In this document: positions 1 through 18,426 of the stretch, piece by piece
How positions within the stretch are numbered: position 1 is the stretch's first letter
Layout: each line of letters begins with the position of its first letter
NCBI RefSeq assembly: GCF_015732185.1
Contig: NZ_WIQM01000004.1
Coordinates: 372,001-436,000, forward strand
Length of the DNA: 64,000 nucleotides
From: Pectinatus haikarae
GTDB lineage: Bacteria > Bacillota > Negativicutes > Selenomonadales > Selenomonadaceae
Direction of reading: 5' to 3'
Position numbers and translations under genes: made by a program
The notes under the pieces: model-generated
The model's database searches: none
What the model saw: the letters and a program-made list of their open reading frames with translations, nothing else
Told to the model about the DNA's origin: nothing

Positions 1-664
1 ACAGCGTACTATCAAGAATATACCAAAATCAATGGCACGTGTTAACAATAAGCCTTTTCTTGAATATATAATAAAAAATCTGATTAATAATGGTATTGAT
101 AAAATAATTTTGGCAGTAGGATATAAAAAAGAGAATATTATGGGTTATTTTGGAACCTCATATCAAAATATTCCTATCGATTATTCGATGGAAGAAGAGC
201 CTCTTCTAACGGGGGGGGCTATAAAAAAAGCATTGAATATGACAACGGAAAAAGATGTGTTCATTGTAAATGGGGATACTTTTTTTGATATTGATTTCTC
301 TGCAATGATAGATCTGCATTCTAAAAAAAATGCAGATCTGACTATTGCTGTAAAGAAAATGAAAAATTTCGATAGATATGGAACTATTGAAATAAAGGAT
401 TATAGAATAATTAAATTTAATGAAAAAAAGTATTGCGAATTAGGAATTATTAATGGGGGAATATATTGCATGAAAAGAACTTGTCTTAATGAAATAGAAA
501 AGAAATCTTTTTCTATTGAAAGAGGATATATGGAGGGAAATTGTAAAAAGAAATATTTTTATGCCTTTGAAAGTGATAAATATTTTATAGATATAGGAAT
601 ACCAGAAGACTATTATAAAGCTCAAATTGATTTTAAAAGTATTTTTAAAGGGACTACTATATGA
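1..664 (+). CDS. hddC: D-glycero-D-manno-heptose 1-phosphate guanylyltransferase (5' end cut off)
   Basis: This is a nucleotidyltransferase of the RmlA/HddC type. It would join heptose 1-phosphate to GTP to give GDP-heptose for LPS or S-layer glycans. The reading frame is open to the left edge: bases 2-31 translate as part of the conserved N-terminal stretch (NIPKSMARVNNKPFLEY), so the ATG at 32 is internal and the glycine-rich NTP loop lies outside the window. VNGDTFFD (bases about 266-290) is the metal/sugar-phosphate motif. The stop overlaps the next gene by 4 bases, so the two are translationally coupled. The gmhB-like neighbour and hddA at 12.9 kb support GDP-heptose over other NDP-sugars. 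The exact substrate is inferred from this context. Confidence 0.8.
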   Translation, partial: QRTIKNIPKSMARVNNKPFLEYIIKNLINNGIDKIILAVGYKKENIMGYFGTSYQNIPIDYSMEEEPLLTGGAIKKALNMTTEKDVFIVNGDTFFDIDFSAMIDLHSKKNADLTIAVKKMKNFDRYGTIEIKDYRIIKFNEKKYCELGIINGGIYCMKRTCLNEIEKKSFSIERGYMEGNCKKKYFYAFESDKYFIDIGIPEDYYKAQIDFKSIFKGTTI

Positions 665-1137
665 ATAGGGCGTTGTTCCTTGACAGGGATGGAACTATTA
701 ATATAGATAAAGGACATGTTTATCGGATTGAGGATTTTGAATTTATAAGTGGGATACCAGAATTTATAAAACAGTATAATAATAAAGAATACAAAGTAAT
801 TGTTATAACTAACCAGGCTGGAATAGCAAAAGGATATTTTACGGCAGAAGATGTTAATAAATTACATAAACACATTAATGAAGAATTAAATAAGATTGGA
901 GCACATATAGATGCGTTCTATATGTGTCCACATCATCCCGATTATACAGGCGTTTGCAATTGCCGAAAGCCTAAGACAGGAATGATAGAACGGGCAATAA
1001 AAGAATTTAATATTAACGTATCACAGTCGATACTTTATGGAGATAAACCTTGGGATATAGAGTGCGGACTGAGGTGTGGAATAAAGTCGTATTATATAGA
1101 CACTGTATTGTCTGATTTTAAAAATAAAATTTCATAA
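661..1137 (+). CDS. gmhB: D-glycero-D-manno-heptose 1,7-bisphosphate 7-phosphatase (GmhB type)
   Basis: This 158-residue HAD-IIIA phosphatase has the catalytic signature FLDRDGTIN at residues 6-14, ITNQAGIAKG as motif II, and the GmhB zinc-site pattern CPHHPDYTGVCNCRKP (Cys-His and Cys-x-Cys). GmhB removes the C7 phosphate of heptose 1,7-bisphosphate. That step lies between the HddA kinase and the HddC guanylyltransferase, and both genes are in this island. The ATG overlaps the hddC stop (ATGA). A gap of 100 bases with no clear terminator follows. Length and motifs fit the family, and function is well supported. Confidence 0.88.
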   Translation: MNRALFLDRDGTINIDKGHVYRIEDFEFISGIPEFIKQYNNKEYKVIVITNQAGIAKGYFTAEDVNKLHKHINEELNKIGAHIDAFYMCPHHPDYTGVCNCRKPKTGMIERAIKEFNINVSQSILYGDKPWDIECGLRCGIKSYYIDTVLSDFKNKIS

Positions 1138-1237: not shown

Positions 1238-4200
1238 TTGATTATACAATCGCAGGCAGGAGAAAAAGTATATTCAGATGGAGATATAACTGAACATGAA
1301 ATGTTGAAAATTGCTCAGAAGTATCCAGGTGAATTATCCCAAGATTATATCAGTAATAACAGTAAATACACAATAAATAATACTTTTTCGCCAGTAAGGC
1401 AAAATATTTTAAACTGGTATAATTTTAAAGAGGATGCAACTATATTGGAAGTTGGTGCGGGGATGGGGGCCTTAACAGGGCTTTTTTGTGATCGCTGTGC
1501 TAAAGTTACGGCGATAGAGATGAATGAAGTAAGGGCCGAAGTTATCCGCGAAAGATATAGAGATAGAAAAAATTTGACAGTGCTGTGTCAAAATATAAAT
1601 ACATGGGAGAATATAGAAAAATACGACTATGTTGTTTTTGTAGGAGTTTTGGAATATGCAGCTATTTTTCAAAATACTAAAACTCCACACTATGATTTTT
1701 TAGAAAACGTGAGAAGATTTTTAAAAAGTGATGGTGTTCTTTTATTTGCTATAGAAAATCGTTTCGGTTTGAAATATTGGAGTGGTGCAGCTGAAGATCA
1801 TTTATGCAAGCCTTATGTCGGGATAGAAGGATATAAAGAACATGGTACAGCAGTTACGTTTTCTAAACAGGAATTGATAAACCTTTTAAAATCTACTGGT
1901 TTAATATATAATCGATTCTATTATGTTTTACCGGATTATAAGTTTCCGCAACTGATTTTTTCTGATGATTATAAACCAAATGGGCACGAACTTAGTAATG
2001 TACATTTTACTTACGGGGCGAATAGCAATTTATTATTTGATGAACGGAAACTTTATGAGGATATTGTAGAAAATAATGTAGCAGATTTTTTTGCAAATTC
2101 TTATTTAGTTGAAGCTAGTCTAACAGAATTATCGCGAAATCACACAGTATATGTTTCAGCCAGAAGTGAATGCAAAAAAAAGTATCGAATTATAACTCAG
2201 ATCACTAGTTCAGGTATGGTAACTAAGAAGGCTGTAAATCGTGAGGCGTTAGGACATATACAGCAATTGTATAATAATACTTTGTTTTTAAAAAATAGAG
2301 GAATAAGAGTTTTAAGTCTTGATTTTAGAGACGATCATGTATCTTGCAAGGTATACAAAGGTATTAAAGCAGATGAAAAATTTGTTCATTATTTAAAGCA
2401 GAATGATTTTTTGTCAATGTGCAAAATGATTGATAGATTGAAAAATGCTATTTTAAAAAGTGCACCATATACAACAAAAGAAAATATTTTACTTAAATAC
2501 AATTTATGTTCAAAGGTTGATGCAACTGATATTGTCTTAGAAAAAGGATTTATAGATATGACTTTTTATAATGCTTTTATTGAAGACGATAATCTTATTT
2601 TTTTCGATCAAGAATGGTGTGTTGAAAATGTACCTGTATCATTTATTTTATATTATGCTATAAAAAATGTTTATAAATTTGGCAAAAATAATACAGATAT
2701 AAAGTTTAGTCAGTTATGCCAGTATGCAGGCATAAAAGTGCCTTATGAAATTTATGATAAGCTAGAAGTCATTATTTGGGATAGAGTACTTCAACGAACG
2801 GGTGATATATATGGTGCGGATGGATATTGTAATCAATATAAGAGAGAATTGACATTGGATTATAAATTAGATAAGTTAGATGATAAAATTAATAATTTGA
2901 ATGGTGAAATTGACAGATTAATGTCTGAGAAAGCAGAATCTGAACGTGCTATAAATGAAATAAGATCTTCACGTGCGTGGCGTTTAATGCAGAAAATATG
3001 GCTGGTTAGAGATAAAGTTATTCCGTTACATAGTAAAAGGCGCTTGTTATTAAAATTATTTTATTGTACAATGCATAATCCAAAGATAATATTATCAAAG
3101 TTTACGATTAATAATATGAGAAAATTATTGTATTATATACGTTATGATTCTTTAGAAAACCATATATATTTTAATAGTAGTGTTACTAATAAATATAAGA
3201 TAACTAAAGTGAATTTAAAACTTTTTCCCATTGCAGAATCTGATCGGTCAATATCTGTATATGAAAAATTGGAATTCCCAAAATTTGAGAATATAAAAGT
3301 TTCAATTATTATTCCTGTGTATAACCAATTTGGATATACATATAATTGTTTGCGATCTATATTACAAAATACAGGATTGGATATACCATATGAAGTTATT
3401 GTTGCTGATGATAATTCAACAGATTTAACTCAAATGATAGACAGTATATTGTTTAATGTACGAGTTATACATAATCATCCAAATTTGCAGTTTATAAGAA
3501 ATTGTAATCAAGCTGTTGATTTTGTACGGGGAGAAAAAATATTTTTTCTTAATAATGATACGCAAGTACAGCCTGGTTGGTTAGCAGGATTAATAGAACT
3601 GATGGACAGGGATAGACAAATAGGGATGGTTGGATCAAAACTGGTCTATCCAACTGGTGAATTGCAGGAGGCTGGTGGAATTGTTTGGAGAGATGGAACT
3701 GCATGGAACTATGGAAGGTATGAAGATAGTAATTTACCTCAGTTTAATTATGTAAAAGAAGTTGATTATATTTCAGGTGCTGCGATAATGATTAGGAGAA
3801 AACTTTGGCAAGAGATCGGTGGATTTGACGAGCAATTCATTCCGGCGTATTGTGAGGATACAGATTTGGCATTTGAAGTACGGAAACGTGGATTCAAGGT
3901 AGTATATCAACCTAAATCTGTGGTCGTTCACTTTGAAGGTATGTCGAATGGTAAAAATACTGATCAAGGAATAAAACATTATCAAATAGAAAACCAAAAA
4001 AAGTTTTATCAAAAATGGAAAGTGCAATTAAGAAATTTTCATCAAAGAAATGCAGTCAATGTATTTCAAGCAAGAGACAGAAGTATGGGAAAAAAAACTA
4101 TTTTACTTATGTGTCATGATAACACAATAGAAAAAGATACTTTGCAATTATTACCCCGACTGGGATATAATGTGAAACTTTGGATCAATGAGGGGCAAGC

Positions 4201-4504
4201 CAAGGATTGTATAAAAGACAATGTAAGACAAACTGGAATTGAAGTTTTAATTGGAAATAAAGATTATATTTATAATTGGCTGCAGAAAAATAAAAAATAT
4301 ATAGATGTTGTTTTTTGGATTGAAGAAAATGTTTCAAAAGAAAAACTGGCCTTTTTTAGAAAAAAAATACATGCGAAATTTATAGGTTATAGCGATAAAT
4401 CTGATGAATGCAATGATTGTTTTGACGACGTTGTAGTGTTGGACGAAATGAATAAAATATCAGAAGAACAAAAAGTGACTTTATGGGAAAAATATTTTAG
4501 CTGA
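1238..4504 (+). CDS. Fused methyltransferase / GT2 glycosyltransferase / truncated GT4-like protein
   Basis: A 1088-residue modular enzyme starting at TTG, chosen because GGAGG lies 8-12 bases upstream. Residues about 20-260 form an S-adenosylmethionine methyltransferase (motif I LEVGAGMGALTG). A region of unknown fold follows, then a coiled coil at about 540-590 ending in SSRAWRLMQKIW. A GT2 domain spans about 685-930 and is intact: metal motif FLNNDT (770-775) and acidic CEDTD (872-876). The last 130 residues resemble only the front half of a GT4 glycosyltransferase and lack its nucleotide-binding half. Such proteins assemble and cap O-chains in the cytoplasm before ABC export, and the wzm/wzt genes directly downstream fit. 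The protein is clearly paralogous to the one at 9796-11901. The sugar substrate is unknown. Confidence 0.8.
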   Translation: MIIQSQAGEKVYSDGDITEHEMLKIAQKYPGELSQDYISNNSKYTINNTFSPVRQNILNWYNFKEDATILEVGAGMGALTGLFCDRCAKVTAIEMNEVRAEVIRERYRDRKNLTVLCQNINTWENIEKYDYVVFVGVLEYAAIFQNTKTPHYDFLENVRRFLKSDGVLLFAIENRFGLKYWSGAAEDHLCKPYVGIEGYKEHGTAVTFSKQELINLLKSTGLIYNRFYYVLPDYKFPQLIFSDDYKPNGHELSNVHFTYGANSNLLFDERKLYEDIVENNVADFFANSYLVEASLTELSRNHTVYVSARSECKKKYRIITQITSSGMVTKKAVNREALGHIQQLYNNTLFLKNRGIRVLSLDFRDDHVSCKVYKGIKADEKFVHYLKQNDFLSMCKMIDRLKNAILKSAPYTTKENILLKYNLCSKVDATDIVLEKGFIDMTFYNAFIEDDNLIFFDQEWCVENVPVSFILYYAIKNVYKFGKNNTDIKFSQLCQYAGIKVPYEIYDKLEVIIWDRVLQRTGDIYGADGYCNQYKRELTLDYKLDKLDDKINNLNGEIDRLMSEKAESERAINEIRSSRAWRLMQKIWLVRDKVIPLHSKRRLLLKLFYCTMHNPKIILSKFTINNMRKLLYYIRYDSLENHIYFNSSVTNKYKITKVNLKLFPIAESDRSISVYEKLEFPKFENIKVSIIIPVYNQFGYTYNCLRSILQNTGLDIPYEVIVADDNSTDLTQMIDSILFNVRVIHNHPNLQFIRNCNQAVDFVRGEKIFFLNNDTQVQPGWLAGLIELMDRDRQIGMVGSKLVYPTGELQEAGGIVWRDGTAWNYGRYEDSNLPQFNYVKEVDYISGAAIMIRRKLWQEIGGFDEQFIPAYCEDTDLAFEVRKRGFKVVYQPKSVVVHFEGMSNGKNTDQGIKHYQIENQKKFYQKWKVQLRNFHQRNAVNVFQARDRSMGKKTILLMCHDNTIEKDTLQLLPRLGYNVKLWINEGQAKDCIKDNVRQTGIEVLIGNKDYIYNWLQKNKKYIDVVFWIEENVSKEKLAFFRKKIHAKFIGYSDKSDECNDCFDDVVVLDEMNKISEEQKVTLWEKYFS

Positions 4505-4616
4505 GGTATTTTATCATATGAATATATAAGGAATCAGATATAAAAAATATGGATATAGTTTGAGTTGAAATTACTTGCGAAATAGTTTAATCTATAAAAA
4601 TTTTTGAGGTGATTAT

Positions 4617-5399
4617 ATGCAGGTGGTAGCTTATTTAAAAAAGGGTTATAAATACAAATGGTTATTATATGAATTAGTAAATAGAGACTTGAAAATAAAA
4701 TATAGAAGATCAATCTTAGGTTATTTGTGGAGTTTATTAAATCCTTTATTGATGATGGCAATACTAACGATAGTATTCTCCAGTTTTTTTCGCTTTGATA
4801 TTCCTAATTATCCTGTATATCTCCTATGTGGGCAACTTATTTATGGATTTTTTAGTGAATCCAGTAATATAGCAATGAATTCAGTAATAAACAATAGCAG
4901 CCTTATAAAAAAAGTATATATGCCTAAATATATTTTTCCCGTTGCAACGATAGTGTCTGCTTTTGTAAATTATTTTTTTTCTCTTTTAGCGCTTATGATA
5001 GTAATGCTTGTGACAAAGGTAAAATTAACAATGGCGCTTTTTCTCGTACCGTTGCCTCTACTCTATATTTTATTTTTTTCTTTAGGTATTGGAATGTTAT
5101 TGTCAACATTAGCTGTTTTTTTTAGGGATATTGTTCATTTATATGGTGTGTTGCTGACTGGTTGGATGTATTTAACACCAATCTTTTATCCAATGAGCAT
5201 GGTACCAGAGTTTGTGAGGAAAATAATATATTTAAATCCGCTATATTATTTTATTGAGATTTTTCGAGAAATTGTACTTTATGGGCGAATCCCTTCTTTA
5301 TCTTTACATATAATTTGCATTGTTTTAATGTGCTGCAGTCTATTTTTGGGATTATATGTGTTTAAAAAGAATCAGGATCGGTTTATTTTATATTTCTAG
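4617..5399 (+). CDS. wzm: O-antigen ABC exporter, membrane subunit (Wzm)
   Basis: A 260-residue ABC-2 type permease. It opens with the family signature ELVNRDLKIKYRRSILGY, followed by about six hydrophobic segments; the conserved amphipathic N-terminal helix and a late LNPLYYF motif are present. Wzm forms the channel that exports undecaprenyl-linked O-polysaccharide across the inner membrane, driven by Wzt. GAGGTGATTAT precedes the ATG. The ATPase partner follows after 15 bases, so they form one operon. Length is normal for the family. Confidence 0.9.
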   Translation: MQVVAYLKKGYKYKWLLYELVNRDLKIKYRRSILGYLWSLLNPLLMMAILTIVFSSFFRFDIPNYPVYLLCGQLIYGFFSESSNIAMNSVINNSSLIKKVYMPKYIFPVATIVSAFVNYFFSLLALMIVMLVTKVKLTMALFLVPLPLLYILFFSLGIGMLLSTLAVFFRDIVHLYGVLLTGWMYLTPIFYPMSMVPEFVRKIIYLNPLYYFIEIFREIVLYGRIPSLSLHIICIVLMCCSLFLGLYVFKKNQDRFILYF

Positions 5400-5414
5400 A
5401 AATAAGGAGAATTT

Positions 5415-7208
5415 GTGGTGTCAGAATACGCAATTGAAGTAAATAATGTTTCCATGTGTTTTAATTTGGCAAAAGAAAAGGTGGATAATTTAAAAGAATT
5501 ATTCATAAAAAAACTTCATGGTAATTTGTCTTTTGACAAATTTTATGCAATAAATGATCTGTCCTTTAAGATAAGAAAAGGTGAGTCCTTTGCCATTGTG
5601 GGATCTAATGGCTCAGGAAAATCTACTATACTGAAAATTATATCCGGTATATTGAAACCAACAAGGGGAAACGTGGAAGTTCATGGCTCCATTGCTCCCA
5701 TGATTGAATTGGGTTCCGGATTCGACATGGATTTAACAGCAAGAGAGAATATCTTTTTAAATGGTGCCGTTTTAGGTTATTCACATGAATTTATGCAGGA
5801 TCATTTTAATGAAATTATAGAGTTTTCCGAGCTGGGGGATTTTATAGATGTGCCTGTAAAAAATTTTTCATCGGGAATGGTGGCACGACTTGGTTTTGCA
5901 ATTATGACTATTGTTAAACCTGACATCCTTATTGTAGATGAGATACTTTCCGTTGGGGACCAATACTTCAAACAAAAAAGTGAACGACGCATGCGTGAAC
6001 TTATGGCTGGAGGTACAACAATTGTACTCGTTTCACATTCCATGGAACAGGTATGTAAAATTTGCGATAAGGCTATTTGGCTGGAGAAGGGTATACTTCG
6101 TTGTTCTGGAAGTGTAGATGAAGTTTATGGACATTATTTAGGAGAACTGTACAAGAAGAGGCAAAGCACATCCGTCCGTGTCGGTGATAAAAAAACTTTC
6201 AGGCAGGCACAGATATTGTCAGAAGAGGAATACTTGACCCAAAATAAGGAAGTTACTTCCTGTAAATCCAAGAATGTAAAGGTGACCGGTGATGTAATGA
6301 TGGCAGATATGACAAGAGGTAATGATAAATATGAAACGAGACTATATTCTCCTACCTATATAACGAAAGTTTTTTGTGGGGGAGAATTTTATTATTTCAT
6401 TGTTGATTCACTCCATCACAGAGTTATTTTCAATCGAAGTATTGATGAGCCTATAGAAAAATGGAAGACTATAGCAGCTGATATTGCTACACCCGTGACA
6501 GTCGCTTGTGATGGTGATTTAATTATTTTAAATGAATCTGGATATGGAAATTTACGTGTATATAAATACATATATAAGGATATATTTAATTACTCGCAAT
6601 GTATCTCTGGCATTATTGGTGCGAGAAATGTGATTTTTGATAAGACAACTAAAACGTTTTATGAATTAAACATGCAAGGAAATATTTTATGGATGTTAAA
6701 AAATGATGATGGTTATGTATCAGTTAGAAAAAAATTTTCTATTGATACAATAAAAAACTTATATATTCGTTCGATTAGAATTTTGGATGGAGTTATGTGG
6801 ATAGTAGCAAATAATGGAATAATATTTTCCTTGAATTATATAGATAATACATTTGAATTGCTGGAGCGCCACGATGTATCAAATGTAATCTCGGATTTAA
6901 ATGATATATTTCAGTTTGATAATTATTTTTATTTGACCAGTGGTGATGGACGCTGTATTAGATTTCGTAATATGCGAGAATTAGTTGTAAAAAATTACGA
7001 AAATCTGACAAAAGCATTATTGATAGATGGTATTCCATATCGATTTGAGTTCTTTGACAATAGAATTTTTTTATCAATAATGCATCAATCATCAAAGATA
7101 ATTTCTTTTAAATTAAAAAATGATATTATCCAAGATGTAGAAAAAATATTTGATTTTGGACAAGCTAATAAGGCTGACATCCTGAGATTTTGCTGTTATC
7201 CTGGATAA
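5415..7208 (+). CDS. wzt: O-antigen ABC exporter ATPase (Wzt) with a propeller-like C-terminal domain
   Basis: A 597-residue protein starting at GTG after AAGGAG. The first 245 residues are a standard Wzt ATPase: Walker A GSNGSGKST (63-71), the SAPMIELG-like segment APMIELG (94-100), signature FSSGM (151-155), Walker B ILIVDE (171-176) and switch His208. The remaining 350 residues do not look like the usual Ig-like carbohydrate-binding Wzt-C domain. They show repeated 40-50 residue beta-rich units (YITKVFCGGEFYYFIVDS, then FLSIMHQSSKIISFK near the end), typical of an NHL/Kelch-like propeller. The extension probably recognises the O-chain end, or couples to a glycan partner; that is inference. 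The next gene starts 17 bases downstream. Confidence 0.85.
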   Translation: MVSEYAIEVNNVSMCFNLAKEKVDNLKELFIKKLHGNLSFDKFYAINDLSFKIRKGESFAIVGSNGSGKSTILKIISGILKPTRGNVEVHGSIAPMIELGSGFDMDLTARENIFLNGAVLGYSHEFMQDHFNEIIEFSELGDFIDVPVKNFSSGMVARLGFAIMTIVKPDILIVDEILSVGDQYFKQKSERRMRELMAGGTTIVLVSHSMEQVCKICDKAIWLEKGILRCSGSVDEVYGHYLGELYKKRQSTSVRVGDKKTFRQAQILSEEEYLTQNKEVTSCKSKNVKVTGDVMMADMTRGNDKYETRLYSPTYITKVFCGGEFYYFIVDSLHHRVIFNRSIDEPIEKWKTIAADIATPVTVACDGDLIILNESGYGNLRVYKYIYKDIFNYSQCISGIIGARNVIFDKTTKTFYELNMQGNILWMLKNDDGYVSVRKKFSIDTIKNLYIRSIRILDGVMWIVANNGIIFSLNYIDNTFELLERHDVSNVISDLNDIFQFDNYFYLTSGDGRCIRFRNMRELVVKNYENLTKALLIDGIPYRFEFFDNRIFLSIMHQSSKIISFKLKNDIIQDVEKIFDFGQANKADILRFCCYPG

Positions 7209-8050
7209 AAGGAGAGATACTTATAATGATAGATTCAGTGAAAAAATTTATAAAGCATAAGATTTTTCGTATGAAAAATTTTGAAAAAAATAAAGATGAA
7301 TTAGAAGCAGTTTTGTTGCGAGTTACACAGGAAAAAGAAAATCAAGCTAAAGAATTGGATCGTCTATATAAAGGGTGCATAAGTTTAAATGAAGAAATTA
7401 ATTTTCTTAAATTTAGAAATGGTACGCTGAAAGAATTGCATTACCAAACAACTGAAGAAAATTGGAATCATGATGGAAGTTTAAAAAAATATTGTTGTAT
7501 TTATCCATTTAACAGAATAGAAATTTTAGAAAATGGCGAGATTTATAATTGTTGTAGCGGATATATTATGCATGATTATTATATAGGTAACATTTATAAA
7601 GATTCATTAAAAGATGTATGGAACTCAGATAAAGTTAAAAAATTGCGTTTCTCTGTGGCTAGTGGAAACTTTGAATTTTGTAATCGCTTTTGCAGATGGA
7701 TTAATCATTTTAATGATAATTTTGGGGAGTTTCAAAAACAATATAGTAACTATTTTGATATGCCAATCGTATTAAGGGAATCTTTTAGAAATACGTATAA
7801 TTCATGGAAGGATTGTACAGTGAAAAAATTTCCAGAAATAATACAATTAACTTGTGATCCAACGTGTAACTTGAAATGTCCTTCATGCAGATCACATTAT
7901 AAAGCGTTAAGTAAAGAAAAAATTGATGATTTATATAATGTTTTAATAGAAAAAGTTTATCCATTATTGCAAGATTGTAAGCTTTTATGTGGATTAATGA
8001 GCGGAGAATTTTTTGCAAGCAGGGTAATGAAACGTTTTTATCAACATATA

Positions 8051-8063
8051 AATAAAAAAAATT
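8051..8063. repeat. 13-bp target-site duplication, left of IS30 copy A
   Basis: AATAAAAAAAATT occurs here and again at 9279-9291, on either side of the 1215-bp element. Deleting the element plus one copy restores the radical-SAM reading frame exactly, which fixes the borders. Confidence 0.9.
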
Positions 8064-9278
8064 GGTTGATTGTAAAATGAAAATGAACAGTTAGCAAAAA
8101 GTCCACAGTGACTTTTCTTTAAATGGTAAAATGGAGTTCTCACAGCACCATTAACCAAAGAGGAGACAATCACTATGGACTGCCATAATTATATCACAGT
8201 ATTCCCTGAACGAAAACGTGGTCAGCATTTGGGACGGGAAGAACGCGGAGCGATCCAGCAACTAAACAAGCAAGGATACTCTCTGCGGGCAATCGCCCGA
8301 GAAATCAATTGTTCGCCAAGTACTATCATGTATGAATTGCGCCGCGGTACACCGCTGCGCAAAAGCCATAGAGGACGTACACCGGAGTACAGCGCCAAAC
8401 GAGGTCTTGCAGTATATGAAATGAATCGAATGAAGTGCAAAAGGCCGCATTATATCACACATTGCTCAGATTTTGTTAAGTGGGTGGTTGCGCAAGTTAG
8501 GGCAAAAAAGTGGTCGTTAGACGCTTGCGTCGGTCATGCGCGCCTGCACCAGCTCTTTGCTGATAAAGAAATGGTATGCACGAAGACCCTATATAACGAA
8601 ATGGCTGCTGGTAATTTGCCGCTATCGCTGTTCGAGCTGCCTGAAATTCTAAAGCGAAAGCAAAACAAAAAAGGAACCCGAAAGCATAAACGTCTGAAAG
8701 GTCGCAGCATTGACGAACGTCCTGACATCGTAGATTTACGCACGGAATTCGGCCATTGGGAAGCTGACACGGTGATTGGCAGAAAAAAAGGCAGAGAAGC
8801 TGCTGTTTTAACTCTGATTGAGCGTGTTACAAACAATTACCTGGCTATTCGCATTCCTGGTAAAAACAGTGAGTCTGTCATGGCTGCGATGAAAGAACTA
8901 CACGCTGAATATGGTGAGCGTTTCAGTTCTGTTTTCAAAACCATTACAACCGATAATGGCTCTGAATTCGAGGAATTTTCCAAGATTGAAGCCTGGGGTT
9001 CCAGTGTTTATTATGCACATCCTTACTCCTCTTGGGAGCGACCAGTAAATGAACGGCACAACGGCTTCTTGCGTCAATATATTCCAAAGGGCGTTTCGAT
9101 TGAGAAATATACTTATGAAGATATATTACATTTTGCCGATGAATTGAATAGCCGTCCGCGCAAGCGACTTGCCTACCAGACACCGGAAGAATTGTTCGAC
9201 GCTTTTCTCGATAAACTTTATATTGCCTGAGATCATCGGCATTTTACCAAAGTGTTCAATTTGCTATTGCAATTTACG
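8064..9278 (+). mobile_element. IS30-family insertion sequence, copy A (1215 bp)
   Basis: The element begins GGTTGATTGTAAAATG and ends CAATTTACG. Its ends form an imperfect inverted repeat of about 26 bp: 18 of 26 positions match when the right end is reversed, including a shared TTGAACA/ATGAACA core. It carries one transposase gene, and its composition is more GC-rich than the island around it. Copy B at 15468-16682 has the same length and orientation and appears identical throughout by eye. The two copies therefore moved recently. It disrupts the radical-SAM gene. Confidence 0.93.
8175..9230 (+). CDS. IS30-family transposase, copy A
   Basis: A 351-residue DDE transposase. The N-terminal HTH (GREERGAIQQLNKQGYSLRAIA...STIMYELRRG) binds the IS ends. 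The catalytic core shows GHWEADTVIG (first D), TTDNGSEF (second D) and WERPVNERHNGFLRQYIPKG (E), the classic IS30 arrangement. AGAGGAGA lies 10 bases before the ATG. The gene is intact, with no frameshift, and its protein is identical to copy B, so it is probably active. Confidence 0.95.
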   Translation: MDCHNYITVFPERKRGQHLGREERGAIQQLNKQGYSLRAIAREINCSPSTIMYELRRGTPLRKSHRGRTPEYSAKRGLAVYEMNRMKCKRPHYITHCSDFVKWVVAQVRAKKWSLDACVGHARLHQLFADKEMVCTKTLYNEMAAGNLPLSLFELPEILKRKQNKKGTRKHKRLKGRSIDERPDIVDLRTEFGHWEADTVIGRKKGREAAVLTLIERVTNNYLAIRIPGKNSESVMAAMKELHAEYGERFSSVFKTITTDNGSEFEEFSKIEAWGSSVYYAHPYSSWERPVNERHNGFLRQYIPKGVSIEKYTYEDILHFADELNSRPRKRLAYQTPEELFDAFLDKLYIA

Positions 9279-9291
9279 AATAAAAAAAATT
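9279..9291. repeat. 13-bp target-site duplication, right of IS30 copy A
   Basis: Second copy of AATAAAAAAAATT. The coding sequence of the split radical-SAM gene resumes inside it (NKKN-FPNMKLFF). Confidence 0.9.
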
Positions 9292-9795
9292 TTCCAAATA
9301 TGAAGTTGTTTTTTAGAATAAATGGACAATTGATTAATGAACAAACATGGCAAGAACTTTCCAATTTGCATGGAATGCCAATATATTTTTCAATCTCAGT
9401 TGATGCTGCAAGATCAGAAACTTATGAAAAAATAAGACTCGGTGGTAAATGGGATGTACTGATAAAGAATCTTTCTTTTCTAATGATGCTGCGATTAAAA
9501 GGTGAGGTAAAATATATTCAGTTAAGTTTTGTGATACAAAAAGCGAATTATAATGAACTGATAGATTTTTTGAATTTAGCAGTGCGTTTGAAGGTAGATG
9601 CTATAGAGCTACAAAGAATAGGAAACTGGGGAACATATACAGAAACCGAATATTTCGAAATGGATGTGCTAAATAAAGAAAATCCTTGCTATAAAGAGGC
9701 GTGGAAAATGGTGCAAAATATATTGAGACAAAAGAAAATAACTGTTATCAATAATGTTGAATAAGAAATAATGTATTTAAAGGAGAAAGAATAGT

Positions 9796-11901
9796 GTGAG
9801 AATGCTTCTTACAATATTGAAAAATATAGATAGGTATAAGATAGAGAAATTTTTTCTTTATTGCCGTACAGAATCTATTTCTTCTGTAATTGGAAGAATA
9901 AAGAATTATATAAATCAATACGATGAAGAAAAATTACAAGAAACATTAATTTTAACACCACCCCAAAAATTAAAGAATTATGCAGTATTAGTTGCTGAGA
10001 GAGCGGATAATCCTTTAGTGTCAATTGTCATTTTTGTTGATAATCAATGGGAATACACATATAATTGTATAAAAAAAATTATAGAAAATACGATTGAAGT
10101 AGATTATGAAATTATTATTGCCGATAATTGTTCAATGGATAAGACGAAACAAATAGATAAATATGTTAAAAATGTAATTGTAAGTCGTAGCAATGAAAAA
10201 AAAGGTTTTTCATGTGTTTGCAATAAAGCGGTAGAAAAGGCAAAAGGGCAATATATACAGATTTTAAGCCAAAGAACAAGCGTACAAAAAAATTGGCTAG
10301 TACAACTTATAAAATTGGCAGGGCGTGATTTCCATGTTGGAATTATTGGACCAAAGATGATTTATCCAACAGGTAAAGTGGAAGCTGCAGGTGGTATTGT
10401 TTGGAAGGATGGAAGTTTATTAAAATATGGGAATTTAGGTGATCGAGAAAGGAGTGAATATAATTATGTAAAGGAATCAGATTATATTTCTTTTACGGCG
10501 TTATTAATGAAAAAGGATCTTTGGATACAGCTTAATGGCTTTGATGAACAATATAAATTAGATGAATATAGCAGCGCTGATCTAGCCTTTGAAGCTCGAA
10601 AAAAAGGATTTAAAGTAGTGTATCAACCTTTGTCAGAAGTGATTCGTTTTGACTTAAATAATGTTTTGAATGATAATATGGAGAAGATAAGTCGACAAAA
10701 ATTTTTCAGGAAATGGAGAGAGGTTTTACAAGTTAAATATTATCCATATAAACAAAATGAATTTCTTGCAAGGGATTGTAGTCGGAAGAAAGACACAATT
10801 TTAGTTATCGATCATTATGTGCCCACCTTTGATAAGGATGCAGGGAGTCGTACCGTTTATCAATATGTTAAATGTTTAGTGAAATTAGGCTATAATGTAA
10901 AATTTATGGGAGATAATTTTTATCGCTCAGAACCATATACAACCTGCTTTCAACAATTAGGAGTAGAAGTTTTATACGGTAGTTATTATTTTAAAAATTG
11001 GCGAAAATGGTTTTTAACTAATGTTAAAAATATAAATTATATATTTCTGAATCGGCCACATATTAGCATAAAGTATATTGATTTTGTTAAAAAAAATTCT
11101 AATGCAAAAGTAATTTATTATGGACACGATTTGCATTTTTTACGTGAATGGAGAGAATATTTAATTACTAAAAATGAAATGTTGAAGAGATCTTCAGAAC
11201 AGTGGCGCCGTCGTGAATTAGATATTATGAGAAAAACAGATGTGATATTTACTTTAAGTACTGATGAGCAAGTGATAATAAATAAAATGTTAAATAATAA
11301 GAAAGCTGTTATTATGCCAGTATTTTGTTTTAAATTTAAAAATAAAATGAAATATAAAATCAAGGAAAGAAAGGATATTTTATTTGTTGGGGGATTTAAC
11401 CATAGGCCAAATGAAAATGCAGTTGTTTGGTTTATGGAAAATATATGGCCACAGATTATTAAAGAAATACCAGAGTGTAGATTTATAATAGCTGGGTCTA
11501 ATCCTACAGATAAGATAAAAACATTTGCAAATGATCGACATGTAGTAGTAACCGGGTATATTTCAGATGAAAAGTTGATGGAATACTACCAACAATGTCG
11601 TATAAGTGTAATTCCATTGAGATATGGGGCTGGGGTAAAGGGTAAAATTATAGAAGCAATGTATTATCAAATTGCAGTTGTATCAACTTCAATAGGAACA
11701 GAAGGGCTTCCTGATATAGATGACTATATAAACAGTTATGATAAAGCAGAAGATTTTTCGAAAGCAGTTATAGACTTATATAAAGACGAAAATAAATTAC
11801 AGTGTTTAGAACATAAATATGCAGAATATATACAGAAATATTTTATGGAAGATCGATTGGCAAAATTGCTAAGTAAATATTTTTCAAAGGAGATAGAATA
11901 A
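9796..11901 (+). CDS. GT2-like (degenerate) / GT4 bidomain glycosyltransferase
   Basis: A 701-residue protein starting at GTG after AAAGGAGAAAG. Residues about 70-320 align closely with the GT2 domain of the 1238-4504 protein (shared YPTGK/E-EAAGGIVW and KGFKVVYQP). However, its metal motif reads ILSQRT (156-161) instead of FLNNDT, and the acidic CEDTD is replaced by SSAD (259-262), so catalysis is unlikely. Residues about 335-701 form a complete GT4 enzyme: an N-terminal DAGSRTVYQY segment, a mid-region LFVGGFNHRPN, and IPLRYGAGVKGKIIEAM, the nucleotide-sugar/EX7E region. It probably adds one sugar to the O-chain while the GT2 part serves as scaffold. The next gene starts 1 base after the stop. 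Confidence 0.8.
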   Translation: MRMLLTILKNIDRYKIEKFFLYCRTESISSVIGRIKNYINQYDEEKLQETLILTPPQKLKNYAVLVAERADNPLVSIVIFVDNQWEYTYNCIKKIIENTIEVDYEIIIADNCSMDKTKQIDKYVKNVIVSRSNEKKGFSCVCNKAVEKAKGQYIQILSQRTSVQKNWLVQLIKLAGRDFHVGIIGPKMIYPTGKVEAAGGIVWKDGSLLKYGNLGDRERSEYNYVKESDYISFTALLMKKDLWIQLNGFDEQYKLDEYSSADLAFEARKKGFKVVYQPLSEVIRFDLNNVLNDNMEKISRQKFFRKWREVLQVKYYPYKQNEFLARDCSRKKDTILVIDHYVPTFDKDAGSRTVYQYVKCLVKLGYNVKFMGDNFYRSEPYTTCFQQLGVEVLYGSYYFKNWRKWFLTNVKNINYIFLNRPHISIKYIDFVKKNSNAKVIYYGHDLHFLREWREYLITKNEMLKRSSEQWRRRELDIMRKTDVIFTLSTDEQVIINKMLNNKKAVIMPVFCFKFKNKMKYKIKERKDILFVGGFNHRPNENAVVWFMENIWPQIIKEIPECRFIIAGSNPTDKIKTFANDRHVVVTGYISDEKLMEYYQQCRISVIPLRYGAGVKGKIIEAMYYQIAVVSTSIGTEGLPDIDDYINSYDKAEDFSKAVIDLYKDENKLQCLEHKYAEYIQKYFMEDRLAKLLSKYFSKEIE

Positions 11902-11902
11902 T

Positions 11903-12871
11903 ATGGTAGTTATGATCACAGGCGCAGGTGGTATGGTAGGTTCACATATGGTAGATTATTTTTACAATGCAAATGTAGATAAGGTGGTTGGAACTTATTA
12001 TAGACCAACAACTGATATTATGGATATTCAAGGGAAAGCCGAGCTTTTAGAGTGCGATATTCGCTATTTTACAAATGTGTACGATATTGTAAAAAAATAT
12101 TTGCCAACTCAAATTTATCATTTAGCAGCACAAAGTTATCCAGCTATTTCGTGGGATAAACCGCAAGAAACAATGGAAATTAATATTACAGGTACAATAA
12201 ATCTTTTTGAAGCGATTCGGAGAATAAAAAAGGAAAATCAAGATTATGTTCCTACAGTCGTCGTTGCTTGTTCTAGTGCCGAATATGGTAATTCCCTGTT
12301 AAATTGTAATAAACCAGTGGATGAGAACGTGGCGTTGTTACCATTGCACCCATATGGTATTAGTAAAGTAGGACAAGATTTATTATCTTACCAATATTAC
12401 ATTAATTTTGGAATTCATACAGTTCGGGCAAGAATATTTAACACAACTGGTCCAAGAAAGGTAAATGATGTTTGTGCTGATTTTACAAAGAGAATTGTTT
12501 TGATGGAGAATACAAGTAATAATGTCACAAATAAATTACGTGTCGGGAATTTGGAGACCTTTAGGGCTATTACAGATGTTAGAGATCTTGTGAACGCGTT
12601 AATTCTTTTAGCAGAAAAAGGAAAAGCTGGAGAGGTATATAACATCAGTGGTAAAAGTATTTATAAAATAAGAGACATTATCGACATTATACGCAGACAT
12701 ACTGATATTCAATTTGATATTGAAATTGACAAGGCGTTGTTGCGTTTGACTGATGAAAAAGTAATTTGCGGAAATAGTGATAAATTGTATAAAGAAACTT
12801 CTTGGAAGCAAAAATATGATTTAGAAACGACGATCGTGGATATGCTTGACTATTGGCGAAAAAAATTATGA
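11903..12871 (+). CDS. NAD(P)-dependent GDP-sugar 4,6-dehydratase/reductase (SDR)
   Basis: A 322-residue extended SDR. The nucleotide-binding loop is GAGGMVGSH at residues 7-15; the catalytic Ser lies in VACSSAEYG and the Tyr/Lys pair in HPYGISKVGQ. It resembles GDP-mannose 4,6-dehydratase and RMD enzymes (NITGTINLFEA, TGPRKVNDVCADF). Placed between GDP-heptose genes and hddA, it could convert GDP-D-glycero-D-manno-heptose towards a 6-deoxy-heptose, as DmhA and WcbK do in other bacteria, or act on GDP-mannose. The substrate is inferred. It is tightly packed in the operon and 19 bases before hddA. Confidence 0.78.
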   Translation: MVVMITGAGGMVGSHMVDYFYNANVDKVVGTYYRPTTDIMDIQGKAELLECDIRYFTNVYDIVKKYLPTQIYHLAAQSYPAISWDKPQETMEINITGTINLFEAIRRIKKENQDYVPTVVVACSSAEYGNSLLNCNKPVDENVALLPLHPYGISKVGQDLLSYQYYINFGIHTVRARIFNTTGPRKVNDVCADFTKRIVLMENTSNNVTNKLRVGNLETFRAITDVRDLVNALILLAEKGKAGEVYNISGKSIYKIRDIIDIIRRHTDIQFDIEIDKALLRLTDEKVICGNSDKLYKETSWKQKYDLETTIVDMLDYWRKKL

Positions 12872-12890
12872 GAAAAGACGGTGAAGTAAT

Positions 12891-13886
12891 ATGATTATAA
12901 CAAGAACACCATTTAGAATGTCGTTTTTTGGTGGCGGAACCGATATAGCATCTTTTTACAAAATATATGGAGGTGCTGTCCTTTCTTCAAGCTTTGATAA
13001 ATATTGTTATGTAAATATACGCCATTTACCTAAATTTTTTAATTATAGGACACATTTGACTTATTCAAAAACAGAATCTGTAAATTCTTATGATGAAATA
13101 AACCATCCGCTGATTCGTGAAGCGATGAAATATCTTGATATGCATGATATTCGTCTGATGTACGATGCGGATTTGCCTGCACGCACAGGGTTGGGTACAA
13201 GTAGTTCTTTTGCAGTAGGTCTTTTGAACGCTTTTTATGCATTAAAAGGAAAGCGTGTTGATAAAAAACGCTTATCTGATGAAGCTATTTATTTGGAACG
13301 TGTACTTTGCAAAGAGGCTGGAGGAATTCAAGATCAGATTGCTGCTTCCTATGGTGGATTAAATAGGATTGATATTACTAGTAATGGATATATTGTCAGT
13401 CCTATTATTATATCCAATCAGCGTAAGAAGGAATTGAATGAAAATCTTATGTTGTTTTTCACCGGATTTACCAGATTTTCAGCAGATATACAAAAAAAGA
13501 CGGGGGAAAATATTAATAAAAAAATAGAACAGTTAAAAGAAATGAAGCAGATGGTAGATGAAGCAGAACATATTTTAACTTCTAAAATGAATCTAAATGA
13601 ATTTGGGAAGTTATTACATTATTCATGGACATTAAAACGTGATTTATCAGAAAGTATATCTACAGACGCAATTGATGATATTTATAAAAAAGCGAGAGAG
13701 GCCGGGGCTATAGGAGGAAAATTACTTGGTGCTGGAGGTGGTGGATTTTTACTGTTTTATGTAGAAAGGGAGTGTAAGAACAACGTATTGAATGTTCTAA
13801 AAAATTTATTGCATGTTCCGATTGAATTTGAAAATAATGGAACACAAGTTGTTTATTATACGGCGGAAGATTATAATTTGGAATAA
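12891..13886 (+). CDS. hddA: D-glycero-D-manno-heptose 7-phosphate kinase
   Basis: A 331-residue GHMP kinase. Residues 1-20 give the HddA signature ITRTPFRMSFFGGGTD. The phosphate loop is LPARTGLGTSSSFAVG (about 98-113), and a late GGKLLGAGGGGF is GHMP motif 3. HddA phosphorylates C1 of heptose 7-phosphate, making the bisphosphate used by the GmhB protein at the island's start. The isomerase gmhA is not in the window. AAGACGGTGAAG precedes the ATG. The match to the family is strong over full length. Confidence 0.9.
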   Translation: MIITRTPFRMSFFGGGTDIASFYKIYGGAVLSSSFDKYCYVNIRHLPKFFNYRTHLTYSKTESVNSYDEINHPLIREAMKYLDMHDIRLMYDADLPARTGLGTSSSFAVGLLNAFYALKGKRVDKKRLSDEAIYLERVLCKEAGGIQDQIAASYGGLNRIDITSNGYIVSPIIISNQRKKELNENLMLFFTGFTRFSADIQKKTGENINKKIEQLKEMKQMVDEAEHILTSKMNLNEFGKLLHYSWTLKRDLSESISTDAIDDIYKKAREAGAIGGKLLGAGGGGFLLFYVERECKNNVLNVLKNLLHVPIEFENNGTQVVYYTAEDYNLE

Positions 13887-15454
13887 ATAAGAAATAAATT
13901 TGTAAATTCAATATGTAAAGTAATGCCCTTTAACCATTATAGATAAGAGTGGTGTAATAAATGGAGGAACACATGATTGATTTTCATAAACTCTTTGATA
14001 AAAAGCAAATACCAATGATATTATTAATATTTATTATCTTATCAATGCATTCAATTCTTATACAGGGATGTGTAGTAAATGATGCATTATTACACTATAT
14101 TAATAGAGAACATGGATTATTAAATGTGATTTATCAACAATTTTTAATTGATCTTAATCAAGGAAGACCATTAAGGTTGGCGGTAATTAATTGGGCTTTT
14201 GATAATATAAGCAAAAATTTTTATATTTCTAGGTTTATCCAAATAGGAATATTAATAAGTAATTTGTTTTTATTTGGATATTTTCTAAAGAGAATATTTA
14301 ATAATATATATTTTTCTTATTTAGTAATATTTTTATTTTGCTTATTTTTACCAATTACTTTTGAACATGCGCTTCCAAATGTATATATTGGATTAGTTGG
14401 AATGCCAATAAATTATTTATTATTATCTCTAATTTTTTTTGATAAATATTTCGATAATAGAAAAAGATATCGATTATTCATTGTGTCAATGTTTTTTTGG
14501 TTCTTAGCGGTATTAAGTTTTGAATTTATGGTTACTTTTGTTTGTTTATTTCCGATCATAAATAAATATAAGACTGGTAGATGGATAGGAATAAATAAAA
14601 TAACAATAATTCCAGTGCTAATAGTATTCTGGTATATTACGACATGGATTATTTTAACTAAAATATATATATCTCATTATAGTGGAACGCAAATAGATAA
14701 TATTTGGTCAGCTAAAAATCATATAGATATTTTATATCAATTATTTAAAAGTTCTTTACCAGGATATTTTATTTTTAATGATAAATATGCATACATATAT
14801 AAATTATGTGGAGATATAATTCCTAGTAATGATGATTCATCTTTAGTGTCTAGAATCCAAAGCATCATTTTAAATATGGGAAATATAAAAATCATATTAG
14901 AAGCTATAGTTGCAATAATAATTTTTTTTAAATACTATTATTTTTTAAAAGACGATGAAAATAATAGTATGCGTTTTTCTCTTAAATATATAATAGTGGC
15001 AATCGTGTATTTATTTTTACCAGCATTGCCATATGCCATAGCTAGAATGTATCAAGGACGAGTAAACGCAACAGACTATATTTCATTGACAGCAAGTTAT
15101 CCAATATATTTTAGCATGATATTTTTATTTTCATATATTATTTGGCACATAATAAAAAAATTAAAAATAGGGTATATAAAAATAATATTAATGTTGTTGA
15201 TTTGCTTTTATGGAATGTTAATACAAACAATGAATAATACTTTCGCTATTGAGCAACAATCTATTTTTAGCAGAATTACTAATATAGAAAGTTTATTTGA
15301 AACACGCGCATTAAGAAATATTACAGAGAAAAGTATATGTTCTTTTGATTTATATCAAACGCAAATGTCCCTATCAGTTTCTCAAAAAAATTTAAATGAT
15401 TTAGTGAAGTTACATGGCTGTAATTTCACTATAGAAAATTATAATGATAATAAT

Positions 15455-15467
15455 AAAATAACTTTAT
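15455..15467. repeat. 13-bp target-site duplication, left of IS30 copy B
   Basis: AAAATAACTTTAT occurs here and at 16683-16695. The duplication length is identical to that of copy A although the sequences differ, as expected for true target duplications. Confidence 0.9.
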
Positions 15468-16682
15468 GGTTGATTGTAAAATGAAAATGAACAGTTAGCA
15501 AAAAGTCCACAGTGACTTTTCTTTAAATGGTAAAATGGAGTTCTCACAGCACCATTAACCAAAGAGGAGACAATCACTATGGACTGCCATAATTATATCA
15601 CAGTATTCCCTGAACGAAAACGTGGTCAGCATTTGGGACGGGAAGAACGCGGAGCGATCCAGCAACTAAACAAGCAAGGATACTCTCTGCGGGCAATCGC
15701 CCGAGAAATCAATTGTTCGCCAAGTACTATCATGTATGAATTGCGCCGCGGTACACCGCTGCGCAAAAGCCATAGAGGACGTACACCGGAGTACAGCGCC
15801 AAACGAGGTCTTGCAGTATATGAAATGAATCGAATGAAGTGCAAAAGGCCGCATTATATCACACATTGCTCAGATTTTGTTAAGTGGGTGGTTGCGCAAG
15901 TTAGGGCAAAAAAGTGGTCGTTAGACGCTTGCGTCGGTCATGCGCGCCTGCACCAGCTCTTTGCTGATAAAGAAATGGTATGCACGAAGACCCTATATAA
16001 CGAAATGGCTGCTGGTAATTTGCCGCTATCGCTGTTCGAGCTGCCTGAAATTCTAAAGCGAAAGCAAAACAAAAAAGGAACCCGAAAGCATAAACGTCTG
16101 AAAGGTCGCAGCATTGACGAACGTCCTGACATCGTAGATTTACGCACGGAATTCGGCCATTGGGAAGCTGACACGGTGATTGGCAGAAAAAAAGGCAGAG
16201 AAGCTGCTGTTTTAACTCTGATTGAGCGTGTTACAAACAATTACCTGGCTATTCGCATTCCTGGTAAAAACAGTGAGTCTGTCATGGCTGCGATGAAAGA
16301 ACTACACGCTGAATATGGTGAGCGTTTCAGTTCTGTTTTCAAAACCATTACAACCGATAATGGCTCTGAATTCGAGGAATTTTCCAAGATTGAAGCCTGG
16401 GGTTCCAGTGTTTATTATGCACATCCTTACTCCTCTTGGGAGCGACCAGTAAATGAACGGCACAACGGCTTCTTGCGTCAATATATTCCAAAGGGCGTTT
16501 CGATTGAGAAATATACTTATGAAGATATATTACATTTTGCCGATGAATTGAATAGCCGTCCGCGCAAGCGACTTGCCTACCAGACACCGGAAGAATTGTT
16601 CGACGCTTTTCTCGATAAACTTTATATTGCCTGAGATCATCGGCATTTTACCAAAGTGTTCAATTTGCTATTGCAATTTACG
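15468..16682 (+). mobile_element. IS30-family insertion sequence, copy B (1215 bp)
   Basis: Same borders, length and orientation as copy A, with the ends GGTTGATTGTAAAATG and CAATTTACG. The two directly repeated copies enclose 9279-15467, about 6.2 kb holding a glycosyltransferase, the SDR and hddA. Confidence 0.93.
15579..16634 (+). CDS. IS30-family transposase, copy B
   Basis: Identical in protein sequence to the copy A transposase (351 residues), with the full HTH and D-D-E core present. No decay is visible. It is carried inside the coding sequence of the membrane-protein gene, whose last part resumes just after the element. Confidence 0.95.
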   Translation: MDCHNYITVFPERKRGQHLGREERGAIQQLNKQGYSLRAIAREINCSPSTIMYELRRGTPLRKSHRGRTPEYSAKRGLAVYEMNRMKCKRPHYITHCSDFVKWVVAQVRAKKWSLDACVGHARLHQLFADKEMVCTKTLYNEMAAGNLPLSLFELPEILKRKQNKKGTRKHKRLKGRSIDERPDIVDLRTEFGHWEADTVIGRKKGREAAVLTLIERVTNNYLAIRIPGKNSESVMAAMKELHAEYGERFSSVFKTITTDNGSEFEEFSKIEAWGSSVYYAHPYSSWERPVNERHNGFLRQYIPKGVSIEKYTYEDILHFADELNSRPRKRLAYQTPEELFDAFLDKLYIA

Positions 16683-16695
16683 AAAATAACTTTAT
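16683..16695. repeat. 13-bp target-site duplication, right of IS30 copy B
   Basis: Second copy of AAAATAACTTTAT. The membrane-protein frame continues from here to the TAG at 16893-16895. Confidence 0.9.
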
Positions 16696-17230: not shown

Positions 17231-18426
17231 ATGGCTTACTCCCATTCTACCTTACCTTTGAAAAAAATGCTATTACAATTCATGATCAAAGACGATCCAA
17301 TGCTCGCTATGCTCAAGTGGCTTTGTGAAAAACTCATGGAAGCCGAAGTGGATGCAAAACTTAATGCTGCCAAGTCGGAAGGAACCGATGAACGGTCTGG
17401 ATACCGTTCCGGCTATCGTGTGCGCCGCTATGATACTCGCATGGGAACCATGTATTTGTTCGTTCCGAAACTAAGGAAGGGCGGCTATATTCCTTTTTTC
17501 GTCACGGAGAAAAAGCGTTTAGAAATGGCGCTCCTGCAGATTATTCAGGAAGCCTATGTAAATGGCGTTTCCACCCACAAAATCGAAAAGCTGGCCAAAA
17601 GTTTAGGCATTGATTCGATCTCCCGCAGCCAAGTATCCCAGATCACTAAAGAGCTTAATGATCAGGTCAAGGCTTTTCGAAATAGATCGCTACAGAAGAC
17701 CTATCCCGTGTTATGGGTAGGTGCCTTGTATGAAAAAATTCGCTATGATCACCGGATACAAAATATGGCGGTAGCCGTCGTAAGCGGTCTGGATGAAACG
17801 GGCCACCGCGATGTATTAGCCGTTGAGCCGATGCAGGAAGAATCCACCGACACTTATAAAGCCGTCTTTAAAAAGCTCAAACAACGAGGTTTAGAAAATG
17901 TGTGGCTAGTCGTTTCCGATGCCCATAAGGGCTTGGTAAAAGCGATCAATGAATCTTTTTTGCAATGCGCCTGGCAGCGGTGTAAAGTCCATTTCATGCG
18001 AATATATTGGCTCATATTCCGGCAAAGAAAGAAGCATAGTTTGCTGGACGACTGAAGCAAATCTGGCTGCAGCCTGATTATGACAGTGCCAAAGAGTATG
18101 CTCATTCTTTTATAGAATCTGTTGACAAATCCTATCAGGAAGCGATAGCCGTTTTAGAAGATGGCCTGGAGGATTTACTGCAGTTTTATGATTTTACCCC
18201 AATAGACTTTCGTAAAATCGCTTCTACCAATATGTTGGAGCGACTCAATCGGGAAATTTGTCGCAGAACAACCGCCGTCGGAATTTTCCCCAGTATGGAT
18301 TCTTATATCCAGCTGGTTACAATATACCTGATCGAATACAGCGAAGACTGGTCAATGAGTCACTGCTATATTAAGCCGGATACACTGCAACAGGTTCAAG
18401 AAAAAAGACATAAATCCGTCGCTTAA
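17231..18426 (+). pseudogene. Broken IS256/mutator-type transposase
   Basis: The first frame (17231-18055) encodes a typical IS256-family N-terminus and core: ERSGYRSGYRVR, YVNGVSTHKIEKLAKSLG, VVSDAHKGLVKAI and CAWQRCKVHFMR. About base 18003 one A appears lost (family sequences continue MRNILAHIP), shifting the frame. The correct frame then meets an in-frame TAG at about 18043 and resumes as GRLKQIWLQPDYDSAKEYA and TNMLERLNREICRRT to the TAA at 18424-18426. The remaining sequence is close to full length. The right end after 18440 (GCTAACTACTATTGACAC) looks like an IS256-type terminus; the left terminus was not recognised. Confidence 0.85.

Follow-up and report, generated by a model that had tools for sequence, protein, structure and literature searches.

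The 64,000-nucleotide stretch of DNA analysed here, referred to as the window, spans positions 372,001 to 436,000 of contig NZ_WIQM01000004.1 of Pectinatus haikarae and includes a gene cluster with two related glycosyltransferase (GT) genes, P1 (open reading frame 1238-4504) and P2 (9796-11901), both of which had been placed at these coordinates by an initial annotation. The genes run in the order hddC-gmhB-P1-wzm-wzt-SPASM-P2-dehydratase-hddA, with gmhA just upstream (Table 1). As the initial annotation had noted, P1 and P2 share a domain of GT family 2 (GT2) and a GT4-like part, and BLASTP aligned them at 36% identity over 464 amino acids (aa) of GT2 and the GT4 front half (E=2e-73), the two GT2 domains being homologous. 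No resemblance this close to P1 or P2 was found elsewhere among the proteins of the same genome. Each of the two proteins has lost the domain that the other has conserved, and this reciprocal loss is the subject of what follows.

Table 1. Coordinates of P1, P2, their domains and motifs, and neighbouring genes in the window (SAM, S-adenosylmethionine; ABC, ATP-binding cassette; NDP, nucleoside diphosphate; IS, insertion sequence; pLDDT, predicted local distance difference test).
Feature	Position	Strand	Description and evidence
P1, whole	1238..4504	+	1088 aa: methyltransferase, unannotated (probably kinase-like) domain, helical linker, putatively live GT2, GT4 front-half remnant
P1 SAM methyltransferase, aa 50-222	1385..1903	+	Pfam Methyltransf_11/12/25; model pLDDT ~85-95 over most
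P1 unannotated folded domain, aa ~296-520	2123..2797	+	Kept in full-length kin; pLDDT mostly ~85-95
P1 long helices, candidate coiled-coil ruler, aa 540-594	2855..3019	+	Model secondary structure, pLDDT ~50-57; weak Pfam coil matches
P1 putatively live GT2, aa 687-910	3296..3967	+	Pfam 87 bits; GT-A fold, Z 21.6; 77/80 near-invariant columns kept
P1 FLNNDT, aa 770-775	3545..3562	+	Metal/donor motif intact; sequence
P1 CEDTD, aa 872-876	3851..3865	+	Catalytic acidic motif intact; sequence
P1 GT4 front-half remnant, aa 953-1088	4094..4501	+	Decayed, cut at domain boundary; pLDDT ~50-73
P2, whole	9796..11901	+	701 aa: helical N-terminus, then a decayed GT2 shell and a complete GT4
P2 N-terminal helical segment, aa 1-45	9796..9930	+	Helices in model; part of the N-terminal 72 aa resembling the G194 protein
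P2 decayed GT2 shell, aa 73-290	10012..10665	+	25/80 near-invariant columns lost; fold retained, pLDDT mostly >90
P2 ILSQRT, aa 156-161	10261..10278	+	In place of FLNNDT; sequence
P2 SSAD, aa 259-262	10570..10581	+	In place of EDxD; sequence
P2 complete GT4, GT-B fold, aa 331-701	10786..11898	+	Pfam 90 bits; Z 30.2 over 347 residues; 62/65 columns kept
hddC	32..664	+	Start just upstream of window; NCBIfam HddC best match, 190 bits, under cut-off 300
gmhB heptose-bisphosphate phosphatase	661..1137	+	NCBIfam TIGR00213, 156 bits, above cut-off
wzm-type ABC-2 permease	4617..5399	+	Pfam ABC2_membrane
wzt-type ATPase	5415..7208	+	Long C-terminal extension, ~350 aa, no Pfam match
Radical SAM/SPASM gene	7190..9764	+	Split by IS30-type element at 8063-9280
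NDP-sugar 4,6-dehydratase-like gene, directly after P2	11903..12871	+	Pfam GDP_Man_Dehyd
hddA-type GHMP kinase	12891..13886	+	NCBIfam HddA best match, 143 bits, under cut-off 600

Scanning 84,980 species genomes with an alignment gave 318 relatives, and the analysis used the best 80; this set is skewed toward close kin of the query, and rarer decayed forms are perhaps under-sampled in it. Used as a single-protein query against genome contigs, P2 recovered zero relatives, although the alignment-based scan did recover them. At E<=1e-40, 2 of 189 genomes from the family encode P2-like proteins; at E<=1e-60, such proteins were found in 3 of 380 genomes of the class and 9 of 398 sampled across the phylum. 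We defined near-invariant positions as those conserved in at least 95% of 81 intact relatives, which gave 87 for GT2 and linker (80 of them in GT2) and 65 for GT4, of which 36 belong to its front half and 29 to its back half. The intact relatives themselves (n=81) miss at most six in GT2 and linker, three in the GT4 front and one in the GT4 back. P1 misses only 3 of the 87 GT2 and linker positions but 25 of the 36 at the front of GT4, whose back half is absent, while P2 misses 28 of the 87 and just 3 of the 65 GT4 positions (1/36 front, 2/29 back). Reciprocal loss on this scale lies well outside the variation within the family. Rates of evolution follow the same division: the end branch of P2 in the GT2 tree is 3.57, roughly 10 times the median of 0.37 (P1, 0.85), and that of P1 in the GT4N tree is 5.71, roughly 17 times the median of 0.33 (P2, 0.39).

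The residues involved make the losses concrete. In the P1 GT2 domain the metal/donor NND and the acidic EDTD are both intact, the FLNNDT and CEDTD motifs reading as the initial annotation gave them, and the GT-A domain of the P1 model matched GalNAc-T2 in a structure search. The GT4 part of P1 had been described as a truncated front half, which is correct but understated, as the remaining segment is also scrambled, with 11 of 36 near-invariant positions left. Pfam gave no GT4 family match in P1, and the 112 bp between P1 and the next gene hold no GT4 coding sequence. Upstream of these domains, and beyond what had been described, P1 carries its methyltransferase and a conserved unannotated domain with the motif DMTFYNA...DQEW. 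This second domain is probably kinase-like by analogy with ORF6 of Klebsiella pneumoniae O7 (PMC11231755); it had zero kinase matches among PDB sequences and Pfam, and in the structure search with the P1 model the match list was filled by the GT2 domain, so that the second domain was unrepresented. The methyltransferase and second domain also match open frames of ~550-650 aa in many Selenomonadaceae genomes (e.g., L136 and L138-L140), which are apparently free-standing and reminiscent of WbdD, described below.

For P2, both parts of the earlier description hold, namely a complete GT4 and a GT2 site that reads ILSQRT and SSAD. Pfam recovers the full GT4 (Glycos_transf_1/Glyco_trans_1_4) and scores GT2 at 58 bits, against 87 in P1, and the GT-B fold matches sucrose-phosphate synthase. 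The changes in GT2 include N158S, N159Q and D160R at the metal/donor motif, E259S and D260S at the catalytic acid motif, and H284R; together with D111, E286, G287 and other near-invariant GT2 and linker residues, the losses total 28. No relative arguably active with an ILSQRT/SSAD site was found among those examined. Judging from sequence and from what is established about these folds, P2 is very unlikely to carry out a canonical, metal-dependent GT2 reaction, and P1 any GT4 reaction. The P2 model is nevertheless good (mean pLDDT 87; predicted template modelling score, pTM, 0.84), and the high pTM suggests that the dead GT2 is packed against the protein's own GT4.

Among the kept relatives, it is usual for GT2 and GT4 to share a chain with both sites intact, and in many cases a methyltransferase and a long linker stand ahead of them. 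The undivided form with both motifs, which the initial annotation had postulated as an ancestor, is therefore widespread. A 1401-aa protein of Butyricicoccus faecihominis (L066), for example, aligns with P1 over 1139 aa at 45% identity and combines a complete GT4 with two intact sites; L071 and L075 are similar to it, and L093 matches the N-terminal part of P1. Many relatives' loci have the arrangement wzm-wzt-[SPASM]-fused gene-[dehydratase]-hddA-gmhA-hddC-gmhB, and that of L066 reads wzm-wzt-SPASM-fused gene-dehydratase-hddA-gmhA/hddC/gmhB. By this synteny, P2 takes the place of the fused gene, and P1 stands in an extra position ahead of wzm. By best NCBIfam match, the flanking genes look like those for GDP-D-glycero-D-manno-heptose synthesis, with hddC and hddA falling below their cut-offs. 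We discarded the idea that GT2 decay goes specifically with heptose genes, as hddA/gmhA/hddC/gmhB also lie beside the genes of many intact relatives. GC content is mostly near 30% (29-40%) in the first 28 kb of the window, compared with 40-49% beyond about 30 kb, and this low-GC polysaccharide island (1-28000) suggests that the cluster was horizontally acquired. Further along, positions 13961-15484 encode a predicted 507-aa membrane protein with no family assignment, whose relatives (24-32% identical) lie near the L054, L058 and L066 clusters, and 17231-18055 encode an apparently shortened Mutator-family transposase.

Taken together, we believe, with a probability of roughly 60%, that P1 and P2 constitute a divided form of a fused terminator-polymerase for a glycan exported by an ABC transporter. 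A division of labour between the two proteins is likely because of the reciprocal losses, the branch lengths, the Wzm/Wzt and GDP-heptose context, and the position of P2 in the fused-gene slot. P1 would terminate the chain, provide the linker and catalyse the GT2 step, and P2 would catalyse the GT4 step, probably with a donor derived from GDP-heptose. Each protein would keep its partner's domain as a catalytically dead shell, and a single growing chain would be extended by the two transferases in turn and leave the cell through the neighbouring Wzm/Wzt. That the shells serve docking, as first proposed, is plausible; however, the predicted packing of the P2 GT2 shell on its own GT4 makes support of folding within the same chain an equally good reason for retention, or the shells may merely not yet have been lost.

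Known systems offer partial parallels. ORF6 of K. pneumoniae O7 combines a methyltransferase-kinase terminator, a coiled coil and two GT modules on one chain, and when a mutant of its first GT module was mixed with a mutant of the second, full product was obtained (PMC11231755), making an arrangement in trans chemically feasible. ORF6 resembles P1 and its relatives in module order, in an unannotated domain between methyltransferase and linker, and in serving an ABC-transporter-exported glycan, but its two modules are both live GT2s on one chain, while P1 and P2 would pair a GT2 with a GT4 on two chains, each with a dead counterpart. Of the features of fused terminator-polymerases, P1 has the N-terminal methyltransferase and the Wzm/Wzt genes alongside (4617-7208), but not two catalytic GT modules at one C-terminus, the complete GT4 being in P2. 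WsaE of Geobacillus stearothermophilus is a trifunctional methyltransferase with two rhamnosyltransferases (PMC2943079); likened by its description, it shares the N-terminal methyltransferase, the two GT domains and a gene beside wzm and wzt, but is undivided, has three active domains and uses other sugars. Escherichia coli O9a likewise has a coiled-coil terminator protein, WbdD, plus a second protein with polymerase modules, WbdA, but both modules of WbdA are live and WbdD has no GT module (PMC11231755). A more distant analogy is the human heparan sulfate polymerase EXT1-EXT2, a heterodimer of paralogous two-domain transferases with one dead pseudo-domain; these enzymes are unrelated, and with only one of four domains reported dead and the other activity shared, the loss is not fully reciprocal (PMC9675754). 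Literature searches found nothing on heptose/S-layer clusters and nothing useful on inactive glycosyltransferase domains.

Several observations weigh against the divided polymerase. P1 and P2 are not paired in the trees, whose backbone is unresolved, and no close relatives of either were found, leaving no basis for dN/dS. Two other genomes, one from another Negativicutes family (G194) and one of Paradesulfitobacterium, have a P2-like protein and no P1 at the same locus. Between P1 and P2, the SPASM gene is interrupted by an IS30-type element of 1218 bp with its 10-bp target duplication, so the operon may be impaired. In addition, the cluster encodes further GTs, which are a possible source of the missing steps.

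How the pair arose is a separate matter, and one account of it is compatible with a functional split: P2 may descend from an older, heptose-associated lineage with a dead GT2 and a live GT4, P1 may have been truncated separately, and the two may have been brought together in the acquired cluster. We consider this mosaic assembly credible, though its chances are somewhat short of even. In the GT2+GT4N tree, P2 groups at 99/98 with L032, a decayed protein encoded beside heptose genes in G194, and the N-terminal 72 aa of P2 are 38% identical to L032 compared with a median of 17% to all relatives; the HddA proteins of the two clusters are 62% identical, and the low GC of the island is consistent with acquisition. 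Apart from L032, the only match to P1 in the G194 genome is an adjacent 297-aa GT2 gene, with no close P1-like protein present, and the decay of P2 may thus predate the P1-P2 pair. A third protein with a decayed GT2 (FLRHDT, MEEAD) and a putatively live GT4 was found in Paradesulfitobacterium ferrireducens (L104), where it adjoins hddA-gmhA-hddC-gmhB in a compact unit (9935-15169) and a 22-kb locus without wzm/wzt. On the other hand, the branch of L032 is very long (3.72), so that the risk of long-branch attraction is real, and the GT4 tree separates it from P2. P2 occupies the fused-gene slot, and a P1+P2 clade was not rejected by the approximately unbiased (AU) test (p 0.185 and 0.352).

The initial annotation had instead read the pair as a duplicated bifunctional enzyme that subfunctionalised. 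The homology of the GT2 domains, the reciprocal loss, the rate asymmetry and the undivided form bear part of this out, but a duplication within the lineage is neither shown nor rejected by trees in which the two are unpaired. We find it rather unlikely that a duplicated bifunctional polymerase lost opposite domains and kept docking shells to become an obligate heterodimer. Such a split might have recurred in P. ferrireducens, which on a contig other than that of L104 encodes a 480-aa protein with a putatively live GT2 (L133, 5482-6924, minus strand) that ends at the GT4 boundary of P1; it lies in a wzm-wzt cluster alongside an undivided 1376-aa protein, and no GT4 remains were found downstream of it. 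As both half-forms recur, and not always as neighbours, a simple local duplication is not required. Shared rare GT2 residues were set aside as a link between P1 and P2, which have six in common, no more than P1 has with several intact relatives and fewer than the eight it shares with L104.

With regard to function, we think it improbable that the dead GT2 of P2 has taken on a new role, such as binding carbohydrate, threading the acceptor or regulating the live GT4. Its median identity to kin of 47%, its confident fold and the retention of decayed shells in three genomes would fit such a role, but it is donor, metal and base residues that have been lost, with no obvious new conserved site, and L032 has deletions inside the domain. 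Less probable still is a degenerating cluster in which P1, P2 or both no longer function, as both open reading frames are uninterrupted, hardly any near-invariant positions are missing from the retained catalytic domains and random decay would not spare exactly complementary domains, despite the very fast evolution of the P2 GT2 and P1 GT4 and the IS30-type insertion in the radical SAM gene, which is recent given an identical second copy, likewise with a 10-bp target duplication, at 15467-16684.

Fused and separate polymerase modules are both known, and what dictates their distribution has been called unclear (PMC11231755); a pair with reciprocally dead domains points to a possible route. P2-like proteins also call for caution against annotation as bifunctional enzymes. 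Finally, P1 and P2 provide a testable case for the retention of dead domains, for which EXT1-EXT2 may serve as an analogue.

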